DNA of 64,000 nucleotides from Caldilineaceae bacterium (GTDB lineage Bacteria > Chloroflexota > Anaerolineae > Caldilineales > Caldilineaceae), in contig JAJEDJ010000019.1 in the NCBI GenBank assembly GCA_022821545.1, positions 1 to 64,000 of the forward strand. Direction: 5' to 3'. Below, in pieces: positions 1,104 to 4,645 of the stretch. The translations under genes were made by a program, and so were the position numbers. A model generated the notes under the pieces. The model was given only the letters and a program-made list of their open reading frames with translations. It made no database searches and was not told the origin of the DNA. How positions within the stretch are numbered: the stretch's first letter is position 1; every line of letters begins with the position of its first letter.

Positions 1104-2129
1104 TCAGAAAGCTACGCCCAGTTTTACATTCTCCTCCGGCGCGTTTGCAATCTTGGGATAGGCTTCGAGCAGGTCGTCGAAGGGAACGACTGGCTGGACA
1201 ACGGGTTCCGATTTCAGGCTGCCGTCGCACAGGAGCCGCCACACGACTGAGAAGAGACGGGTCTCGTCCCAGTTGGGGTATTCGGGATTGGGTTCGCTGC
1301 AGGCGCGGGAGAAGACGATGGTTGGGCGGTTGAAGTGGGCTTCGGCGCCGAGGTCGAGGCCTGCCGGGTAGCTGCCGGGCCAGGCGCCTGCGACGACGGT
1401 GCCGAGGTAGGCCACGCCGCGCAGGGCGGCCTGCAGCGCGCTGTAGTGGCCGCTGTAGTCTACGCAGACGTCCGCGCCTCGTCTGTCCGTGGCGAGCTTG
1501 ATTTCAAGGCCGGCGTCGCAGGTCGTTGGATCCATGACGGTGTCGGCCCCGCATTCGAGCGCGACGTCGCGGCGGAGGGGGATCGGATCGACGGCGATGA
1601 CAGGGTAGGCGCCGGCAAGTTTGGCGAGCTGGACGACGAAGAGACCGATGGCGCCCATGCCGAATACTGCAACGGCGTCTCCGAGACGGATGTGGCCGTC
1701 GCGGACGGCGCCGAGGGCGAAGTCGGCCGGGTCCAGGCAGACTGCTGCCTGCCAGGGTACGCCATTGGGCAGTTTGCGGGCGCGGTCAGCGGGCCATATA
1801 TGTTCCTGCCGGAAGTAGCCGTGCGCGAAGACGGTCTCGCCGAGACTGATGTCCCGGACGTCGGATCCGACTTCATTGACCTCGCCCACACACATGTTGC
1901 CAAGTCCGTTGGGGTACTTTACCATCTGGCTTTCCTGCGTGAAGATGTGCAGTTCGCCGTCGTAGTTGCCGCGATGGCCGGCGTAGCCCTGGAACATGGC
2001 CATTTCCGAGCCGTGCTTGGCCGCGCCGAAGCGGCTGCGTACTCTGATCTCTTCGGGTGCCAGGGGCCTGCTTTCGTACTCGTTGAAGGCGACTTCCTCG
2101 CGTGCGGGTGCGATGAGTTCTGTGGGCAT
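1104..2129 (-). CDS. MDR-family (zinc-type alcohol dehydrogenase-like) oxidoreductase
   Basis: A 341-residue medium-chain dehydrogenase/reductase. The Rossmann motif GMGAIG lies in the middle of the protein and is followed by VIAVD, which fits NAD(H) binding. The usual catalytic-zinc pattern (C...GHE) is not intact: the N-terminal segment reads AAKHGSE and GNMCVGEV where C-x-D/S and GHEGVGEV would be expected, so zinc dependence is doubtful. The ATG at 2129 was chosen because GGAGAAAG lies about 7 nt upstream; the in-frame ATG at 2153 would add 8 residues and has no such site. It is convergent with the sugar acid dehydratase and may act on a polyol or sugar in the same catabolic context (inference). 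Confidence 0.8.
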   Translation of the reverse strand: MPTELIAPAREEVAFNEYESRPLAPEEIRVRSRFGAAKHGSEMAMFQGYAGHRGNYDGELHIFTQESQMVKYPNGLGNMCVGEVNEVGSDVRDISLGETVFAHGYFRQEHIWPADRARKLPNGVPWQAAVCLDPADFALGAVRDGHIRLGDAVAVFGMGAIGLFVVQLAKLAGAYPVIAVDPIPLRRDVALECGADTVMDPTTCDAGLEIKLATDRRGADVCVDYSGHYSALQAALRGVAYLGTVVAGAWPGSYPAGLDLGAEAHFNRPTIVFSRACSEPNPEYPNWDETRLFSVVWRLLCDGSLKSEPVVQPVVPFDDLLEAYPKIANAPEENVKLGVAF

Positions 2130-2294
2130 CTTCTTTCTCCGGGAAGAGTTCATTGAGACTCAAATTGGATGACAGAGTACCGATTCGTAGGAGAATTCTA
2201 GGTAATAGGGGAAGCAAACTGTACTTGCAGTCTGCAAGCCTCTACAACGGTCGCTTAGCCTAAACCGATTGAGATGGCAGGGGATTTTCTGACA

Positions 2295-3440
2295 CTAAGA
2301 AAAATCAAGTTCTTCCACCAAGTCTTGGAAATGGCGCACTTTTCTGCGCACTTCCCTTGGATTCTGGTCACAGAGACGTTTTAGGTCAGATTCAATTGTT
2401 GTTGCTTCGTCACGCGACGACACCTTTGTAAACCACACAAGCTTAGGGTTTCTGCCCGCTGTCGAACTAGTGTCACCGTCACGATGTTCCATCAGCCGCT
2501 CACGCAGTTCACGAGTCTGTCCAGCGTAAAAAATGTTCCCGTCAAGCTTGAGAATATATACGAAGAATTCAGTTGCTTCGGCGTCTCCTGACTTCCACTT
2601 TCGGGAGTATTCTTTCTTGTATTTTCCGCTTGTCTTCCGCGGCTTTCTTCCGGCAGGGGCGGGGCTGCCTTCTGCTTGGGCCTCCTCACTCTTGGGGGCG
2701 CGTCTCAGCGGTTTGTCAGACTTTGGGCTTCCTTTTCCCTGATGGTCGTCAATCTCATTCTTGTCAATAACAAGCCTTTGCAGATTCGGGAGTTGCATTA
2801 CTTCTTCTGGAATCGAACCAGTCAGACGATTGTTCCTCAACCACAACTCTCTGAGATTGAACAGTTTTCCAAGAGACTTGGGGATTTCGCCAGTAAGCTG
2901 ATTGTTTCCAAGCCACAATTCTTGCAGGTTTGAGAGATTGCCGATTGAATCTGGTATGTTACCGGTCAAACAGTTATTTATCGCTGTGAATCTTTCCAGG
3001 TTCTTTAGTCCTCCGAGTTCCTCAGGTATCACGCCCGTCAGTTGGTTGTGTTTGAGCCACAAATCCTTCAGAAATGAGAGGTTGCCAATTGTAGGAGGGA
3101 TACTTCCATGCAGATAATTGTTATCGAGAACTAGACTCTCCAAGGCGGAAAGTTGCCCAAGCGAAGGAGAGATGATCCCGGTCAACCTTCTCTTTCTTAG
3201 ATTCAATTCAGTTACCCGTCCTCCGGTTACCTGAACTCCTTCCCATTTCTCAACGGGAGTGCGTGCATTCCAGTTCACTGAAGCGGCTCCTTCCAAGGCT
3301 TCCTTGGCCGCCAAAAGAGTTTCCAAGTCTTCCTCTAATGTAGTGTTCTGATTCTTGGAGATTGTTGCCGGGGAAGCCTTTCCTTTCAGTTGCCGCGAGT
3401 GTGGGCCAGATTTAGACTTATTCCTAATGAACCATTTCAA
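2295..3440 (-). CDS. Leucine-rich-repeat protein with C-terminal GIY-YIG nuclease-like domain
   Basis: A 381-residue protein with an unusual domain order. Residues about 38-75 look like an LRR N-terminal cap (VNWNARTPVEKWEGV). Residues 75-232 hold six to seven 24-residue plant-type repeats (LxxLxLxxNxLTGxIPxxLGN). Residues 233-288 are a basic, Lys/Pro/Ser-rich linker. Residues 291-355 match a UPF0213/URI-like GIY-YIG domain, with Y295 (VYI), Y305 (YAG), an RELRER arginine cluster near 310-315, EH at 318-319 and E350 in the catalytic positions. The start is TTG, supported by AGGAGG 7 nt upstream; no ATG is available before the repeats. There is no signal peptide. The gene and its flanks are visibly AT-richer than the neighbours, suggesting acquisition. 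The function is unknown; both domains are clear. Confidence 0.8.
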   Translation of the reverse strand: MKWFIRNKSKSGPHSRQLKGKASPATISKNQNTTLEEDLETLLAAKEALEGAASVNWNARTPVEKWEGVQVTGGRVTELNLRKRRLTGIISPSLGQLSALESLVLDNNYLHGSIPPTIGNLSFLKDLWLKHNQLTGVIPEELGGLKNLERFTAINNCLTGNIPDSIGNLSNLQELWLGNNQLTGEIPKSLGKLFNLRELWLRNNRLTGSIPEEVMQLPNLQRLVIDKNEIDDHQGKGSPKSDKPLRRAPKSEEAQAEGSPAPAGRKPRKTSGKYKKEYSRKWKSGDAEATEFFVYILKLDGNIFYAGQTRELRERLMEHRDGDTSSTAGRNPKLVWFTKVSSRDEATTIESDLKRLCDQNPREVRRKVRHFQDLVEELDFS

Positions 3441-3658
3441 TATTCGACCTCCTACGATGGCTTGCCAACTAGCCCCTAAGAAAAGAAGTCAAAGTCCTGA
3501 ATTTCGTATATCGTTACTGCAAGTGTCGGGAGTCTGATCAATGCTATAGCCGGCCATTCTACCTTCAAGCGCTAGTTTATGCAATTGCCCTCAGTTTTCC
3601 TCTGTGCTAATCTCATCCTGATGTTCCAAAGCCATTACACGAAGGAACTTAGTTTGGC

Positions 3659-4645
3659 ATGCCACTCTGGTTGACGCGAAACGACGTAGTGAATCTCCTG
3701 GACATGCCGGCGGCCATCGAGGCGGTTGCCGAGGCCTACCGCCTCATCTACCGCCGCGAGGCGGAGCTGCCTGTGCGCTCAAACATCCCGGTCGCGCCGC
3801 ATGACGGCAGCCTGATGACGATGCCGGCCTACCTGGGCGGCGAGTTGGATGCGCTCGGGGCGAAGTTGATCTCCTTTTACGGCACCAACCCTGCACGGCG
3901 CGGCCTGCCCGCCATCCAGGGGAATGTTGTCCTTTTCGACGGCAGGAATGGCGCCTTACTGGCGCTGATGGATGCCGGGCATCTGACGGCCATGCGTACG
4001 GGAGCGTCAGGGGGTGTGGCGGCACGCTACCTGGCGAGAGAGGACGCGCGTACTCTGACGATCTTCGGGAGCGGCGTGCAAGCCCCGTATCAGGTAGAGG
4101 CGGCCCTGTGTGAGCGGCCGCTGGAACGGGTCTTCGTGATTTCGCGTACGCCGGCCAATGCTGAGACCCTGGCGGTCGAGCTGACCGAAAAGCTCGGTGT
4201 CTCCGCACAGGCGACCGCCGATGTCGAAATGGCTGTACAAGCCGCCGACATCCTTGTCACGGCAACGAGCGCGCATGAACCCTTGTTTGATGGCGCACAA
4301 CTGCGGCCCGGAGTCCACATTTCGGGGATCGGCTCGCACCTGCCCTATGCCAGCGAAGTGGATGCCGTCACCCTGGGACGGTCCAAAGTCGTTGTTGATC
4401 AGATGAGCGCATGTCTGGCGGAAGCGGGTGACCTGATCCGGCCGATCGAAGAGGGCAGTTATGACGCCGGTCGGATACATGCAGAGATCGGCGCGCTTGT
4501 CGCAGGCGACCTGCCCGGGCGCGAAGACGACGAAGAGATCACGTTTTTCAAGTCAGTTGGACTGGCGGCGCAAGACGTGGCAGTGGCCCGAGTCGTTTAC
4601 GACAAAGCGCTGGCGCAGGGGGCTGGCATTGCCTTGGACGCATGA
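3659..4645 (+). CDS. Ornithine cyclodeaminase / mu-crystallin family protein
   Basis: A 328-residue protein of usual family length. It has the family TAMRTGA segment, an NAD-binding [12 protein letters not shown] loop near residue 140, and a C-terminal [13 protein letters not shown] signature. Known members include ornithine cyclodeaminase, alanine dehydrogenase, ketimine reductase and tauropine-type enzymes, so the substrate cannot be assigned from sequence alone. The ATG at 3659 has AAGGAA 11 nt upstream. The stop overlaps the start of the downstream GNAT gene by 4 bp (ATGA), so the two are probably translationally coupled. Confidence 0.88.

Follow-up and report, generated by a model that had tools for sequence, protein, structure and literature searches.

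The window, which is the whole stretch of 64,000 nucleotides analysed, carries on its minus strand a single open frame (2295..3440) that encodes a 381-aa protein in which an LRR array is fused to a GIY-YIG nuclease domain. The same fusion was found in two other genomes of the genus, G014 and G002. The gene starts with TTG, and a strong Shine-Dalgarno sequence, AGGAGG (3448..3453, minus strand), lies 7 nt upstream of it. In the G014 copy, AGGAGG stands at an equal distance from the corresponding TTG (L045:10873-10888), a conservation that supports this start. The fusion gene lies between a zinc-binding dehydrogenase gene (1104..2153, minus strand; Pfam ADH_zinc_N) and an ornithine cyclodeaminase/mu-crystallin gene (3659..4645, plus strand; Pfam OCD_Mu_crystall), both of which served as syntenic markers of the insertion site. 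It is not part of an operon, and its neighbours are not repair genes. No convincing repeats, promoters or terminators were found around it. In G014, the fusion gene is preceded by an open frame in the same reading frame (L045:10586-10885), whose product combines a recombinase-type helix-turn-helix (PF07508, E 2.6e-4) with the motif CPxSGxWN...GExFPxC. This frame may be a separate unit or the start of a longer N-terminal isoform of the G014 protein.

The protein was divided into five parts, all encoded on the minus strand. The N-terminal 34 residues (3339..3440) are basic and predicted to be disordered (pLDDT about 32), and no signal peptide was visible there or elsewhere in the 381-aa protein. 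The LRR N-cap (residues 35-75; 3216..3338), DLETLLAAKEALEGAASVNWNARTPVEKWEGV..., is modelled with a helix at residues 35-49 and lacks the Cys that the secreted paralogues have in their N-caps. The LRR array (residues 76-232; 2745..3215) consists of 24-residue LTGxIP-type repeats, which start at residues 76, 100, 124, 148, 172, 196, and 220, a spacing of exactly 24. The basic linker (residues 233-277; 2610..2744) has 13 K/R and 5 D/E, and the GIY-YIG domain of the UPF0213/Slx1 type follows (residues 278-381; 2298..2609). The sequence-only reading had described six to seven repeats, a basic linker and a GIY-YIG domain in one frame; Pfam, AlphaFold and Foldseek agreed with this arrangement, and the repeat starts in the sequence number seven. 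Pfam LRR_1 matched the protein at E 3.4e-22. In the AlphaFold model, built from nine family sequences, both folds are predicted: an LRR solenoid with most of residues 60-220 above pLDDT 85 and a well-folded C-terminal domain, with disorder in the linker (231-272). The structural matches of the LRR in Foldseek were the ectodomains of plant LRR receptors (FLS2, MIK2, and SERK). By its 24-residue LxxLxLxxNxLTGxIP repeats in a solenoid, found alike by Pfam, the model and Foldseek, the array is of the plant type.

The GIY-YIG profile PF01541 matched at E 1.1e-6. The full-length protein scored 29.3 bits and the isolated domain 32.9 bits, only moderately above the cut-off of 22.6. Y295, Y305, R315, H319, and E350 are invariant in the nine family members, and the catalytic Tyr, Tyr, Arg, and Glu claimed earlier are indeed at their expected positions (Y295, Y305, R315, and E350). 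By profile and catalytic residues the protein can be placed in the GIY-YIG superfamily, with predicted nuclease activity. Solved UPF0213 proteins were matched at E 1.6e-9 (1ywl) and 7.4e-9 (1zg2). When the nuclease domain alone was submitted to Foldseek, UPF0213 came first and Slx1-Slx4 second, both above UvrC; ranks 1-10 were UPF0213 and Slx1, and the top 17 ranks were GIY-YIG enzymes throughout, with a probability of 1.00 and a modest best E of 3.3e-3. Its closest sequence and fold relatives thus place the domain in the UPF0213/Slx1 lineage. A mark of that lineage is the absence of the C-terminal catalytic Asn (PMC1564403). N360, ten residues past E350, is a candidate counterpart of the UvrC Asn and is kept in 8 of the 9 members, with Ser in L055.

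Searches of 400 genomes of the phylum, of 396 of the class and of a GTDB-based contig collection returned a small and rare GIY-YIG subfamily, all members of which were found in Chloroflexota, in a motif scan that rests on two short peptides. It comprises the three LRR fusions and six further loci in other Chloroflexota (L050-L055), whose GIY-YIG domain is 55-66% identical. The N-terminal part of these proteins is exchangeable: where the fusion has the LRR, L050-L055 have a different module, CxxxxC...CxxH...CxxC...CxxC. Judged by its Cys/His pattern, this module looks like a zinc finger with putative zinc binding; its best Pfam zinc-ribbon matches fall below the cut-off. From this distribution, the simplest history would be that the LRR took the place of the Cys/His module in this genus. 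Two small VapB/VapC-like toxin-antitoxin genes follow the zinc-module GIY-YIG gene at L050 (L050:6493-7175) and are absent at the related L052.

Within the genus, the fusion is present in 3 of 17 genomes: the window's genome (G000), G014, and G002. In G002 it is flanked by the dehydrogenase and ornithine cyclodeaminase genes, just as in the window, and points the same way. Thirteen other congeners have an empty site, where the two flanking genes face each other and the roughly 170-315 bases that separate them hold no gene. The site is also empty in G014, where the fusion is located elsewhere. An assembly chimera, or two genes joined in error, was ruled out, because two further assemblies have the fusion as well, one of them at the syntenic site. 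An origin from phage, plasmid or virus was rejected as well: the scans of viral contigs gave no match, and the plasmid and phage records gave only 38% UPF0213-like matches in Listeria. The GIY-YIG domain of the window copy is 84% identical to that of G014 and 69% identical to that of the syntenic G002, whereas the order is reversed for the flanking ornithine cyclodeaminase, with 91% identity to G002 and 83% to G014. Since the fusion is closest to G014 while the flanking gene is closest to G002, the gene has probably been exchanged or replaced within the genus, or the copies are paralogues.

The window gene had been described as AT-richer than its surroundings, in keeping with a recent acquisition. 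The low GC is real (0.48 against about 0.60-0.65), but it is common to all three fused genes (0.48-0.49). Recent acquisition is also too simple an account, as the gene occupies this site in a relative too and the synonymous divergence is high; what the 13 empty sites and the discordant identities do indicate is that it has been gained, lost or exchanged among members of the genus. The dN/dS between the window copy and the G014 copy was about 0.2 overall, 0.09 for the GIY-YIG domain and 0.18 for the LRR, rough values given that synonymous sites are close to saturation. By these sequence comparisons, purifying selection on the fusion gene is clear, and the linker is its least constrained and fastest-changing segment.

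A single AT-rich gene whose location in G014 differs from that in G000/G002, with 13 empty sites, could also be a wandering, homing-like or accessory GIY-YIG gene which acquired by chance an LRR of little specific role. GIY-YIG domains are mobile and some of their fusions possibly lack functional meaning (PMC1564403), a warning that counts against a targeted nuclease, and the LRR cassette is fused to many unrelated domains in the genus. However, comparison of empty and filled sites gave no clean junction, no target duplication, terminal repeats or intron was found for the gene, and viral or mobile relatives were not found. The Slx1 lineage also differs from the homing lineage, and the LRR itself is under purifying selection against G014. 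We therefore regard a wandering gene as unlikely.

The plant-type LRR family is large in the genus, with 82 N-cap matches in G012 and as many as 88 in G015 against 6 in the window's genome. Most of the LRR proteins read in the genus have lipobox signal peptides together with N-cap and C-cap cysteines. The LRR of the fusion shares with these lipoproteins the N-cap pattern LLxxKxxLxGxxxLNWxxxxPxxxWxGV. In 10 of 10 signal-less LRR proteins compared, the RecQ fusions described below included, the first N-cap has no Cys. On this pattern, the lack of a signal peptide together with the lack of the N-cap Cys is a consistent sign of a cytosolic location. In the N-cap tree, a short alignment with many unresolved forks, the three GIY LRRs group with one signal-less LRR (92/87). 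Small stand-alone LRR proteins with neither signal peptide nor N-cap Cys occur in several congeners (L118, L119, L120, L128, and L127). By sequence reading, the cassette is also fused in congeners to a trypsin-like protease and to fibronectin-like stretches; at L118:5123-9001 and L144, LRR proteins run on into a trypsin/HtrA-like protease stretch. The G004 genome has a 2277-aa open frame (L136:5360-12193) in which about 45 LRRs form tandem blocks and a domain containing FSAEAAQWAVESWAL is repeated.

The sequence-only reading had the protein acting inside the cell or being delivered by another route. The first part was strengthened by the missing signal peptide and N-cap Cys; the second became unlikely. 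A role as an effector sent into host or competitor cells, like the LRR-containing secreted effectors, would fit a study of sponge-associated Chloroflexi that counts plant-type LRRs as eukaryote-like proteins (PMC6306507). We infer a sponge-associated source here, as for the Caldilineae in that study. The nearest NCBIfam LRR models are type III effectors. Nevertheless, the XopAC/XopAE/XopL-type LRR model scored 60.5 against a cut-off of 450 bits, and neither the T3SS/flagellar export protein (FliP family, PF00813) nor the contractile sheath (PF04984) was found in the genome. In addition, the protein has neither the signal peptide nor the N-cap Cys typical of its exported kin, and the relatives with the zinc-like module resemble ordinary cytosolic enzymes. 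Delivery as an effector is, in our judgement, very improbable.

The same cassette was also found on another DNA enzyme. In G009 (L141:6276-9125) and G015 (L114:1875-4187), a RecQ helicase (DEAD, Helicase_C, and RecQ_Zn_bind) has a C-terminal LRR cassette, and in both genomes the gene adjoins an ordinary recQ. In G014:C90, a signal-less LRR gene (L117:2600-3559) lies about 300 bp downstream of recQ on the same strand, possibly an unfused form of the RecQ-LRR arrangement. The discovery of Slx1 came from its synthetic lethality with Sgs1, a RecQ helicase (PMC4726241). The RecQ-LRR fusions and the Slx1-Sgs1 lethality together make a DNA-processing setting for the LRR-GIY-YIG protein somewhat likelier, in a circumstantial way. 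We speculated further, though we consider it improbable, that the cytosolic LRR cassette is a common docking adaptor for branched-DNA enzymes in the genus, on the Slx1-type nuclease in three species and on RecQ in two, with a separate gene just behind recQ in one more. If this is true, the bacterium would use LRR-protein contacts to assemble or place an Slx1/RecQ-like junction-processing machinery, a counterpart of what Slx1-Slx4 and Sgs1 do with the help of scaffolds in eukaryotes.

That a predicted nuclease is coupled here to protein recognition, as proposed from the sequence, was supported by the analysis. The suggested use in defence or competition was not established, given that metabolic genes surround the window copy, no defence model matched, and only the G014 copy is found among defence genes. 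The main rival to an LRR-placed nuclease is an anti-phage or anti-element one, in which the LRR would recognise a protein of a phage or plasmid and thereby trigger the GIY-YIG domain to cut the invading or the cell's own nucleic acid; it is possible, if somewhat unlikely. The G014 copy has a ThiF/E1-like gene on one side and a gene for a type I restriction subunit on the other, and the candidate defence genes PDC-M02A/B are close by. The patchy presence, the empty sites and the identities discordant with the flanking gene resemble the turnover of defence genes, and the linker and the LRR evolve faster than the nuclease domain. However, the LRR as a whole has no sign of positive selection and the overall dN/dS is low. 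Moreover, the syntenic G002 copy, like that of the window, sits among metabolic genes, those zinc-module relatives whose flanks were read have no evident defence genes, and no PADLOC family matched the protein at E 0.01.

We tentatively favour, with a probability of about 0.45, the view that the fusion works in the cytosol as a structure-selective endonuclease of the UPF0213/Slx1 lineage, that its N-terminal targeting module has been exchanged and that contact between the LRR and a protein directs it. The LRR cassette would have been drawn from the genus's own LRR repertoire, adapted to the cytosol and put in place of the Cys/His module. By binding one particular protein, the LRR would bring the flexible basic linker and the GIY-YIG domain to wherever that partner sits, and DNA that is branched or otherwise exposed there, rather than RNA, would be cut. 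An LRR-placed nuclease acting in the cytosol on branched or exposed DNA is favoured because the nearest characterised relatives cut branched DNA and because LEM-3/ANKLE1 has the same design. The retention of the fusion in frame in three species supports this targeted nuclease, and the window gene's lack of repair-gene neighbours counts against it. Since only 3 of 17 congeners have the fusion, it is not a core repair function, which also counts against this reading.

Prokaryotic Slx1-type GIY-YIG proteins have been described as typically bare catalytic domains, and their role is hardly known. The natural LRR fusion, its zinc-like sister form and RecQ-LRR offer a handle on what this nuclease lineage is directed to, and they suggest that the plant-type LRRs of Chloroflexota serve inside the cell too, beyond exported surface proteins. 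The best sequence and fold match, UPF0213/prokaryotic Slx1 (PDB 1ywl and 1zg2), has the same minimal GIY-YIG core and active-site residues. According to the 2006 survey of the superfamily, which does not mention LRRs, such proteins typically have no auxiliary domains (PMC1564403), whereas the fusion adds an LRR at the N-terminus and, at the C-terminus, an extension with the final residues FQDLVEELDF. Eukaryotic Slx1, in Slx1-Slx4, is of the same GIY-YIG lineage by Foldseek and also has a second domain that makes protein contacts. However, the fusion has no C-terminal RING finger like that of orthodox eukaryotic Slx1; it ends after the GIY-YIG domain, its extra domain is the N-terminal LRR, and no Slx4 is known for it. 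LEM-3/ANKLE1 is similar in layout, with N-terminal protein-binding repeats and a C-terminal GIY-YIG nuclease (PMC11975286), but its repeats are ankyrin repeats accompanied by a LEM domain, its GIY-YIG lineage is another one (COG3680), and it is confined to animals; the fusion protein has no ankyrin or LEM match in Pfam and has the LRR instead. Within the genus, the plant-type LRR lipoproteins have the same N-cap and LTGxIP repeats, but they carry lipobox signal peptides and cap cysteines, of which the fusion has neither, and the fusion has a nuclease domain. The RecQ-LRR proteins of G009 and G015 have the same cassette on a cytosolic DNA enzyme, which is a helicase rather than a nuclease and has the LRR at its C-terminus. 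The literature search gave no paper naming an LRR-GIY-YIG or a RecQ-LRR protein. The parts are known; within the literature searched, the LRR-GIY-YIG combination, the module exchange and the parallel fusion to RecQ are new.
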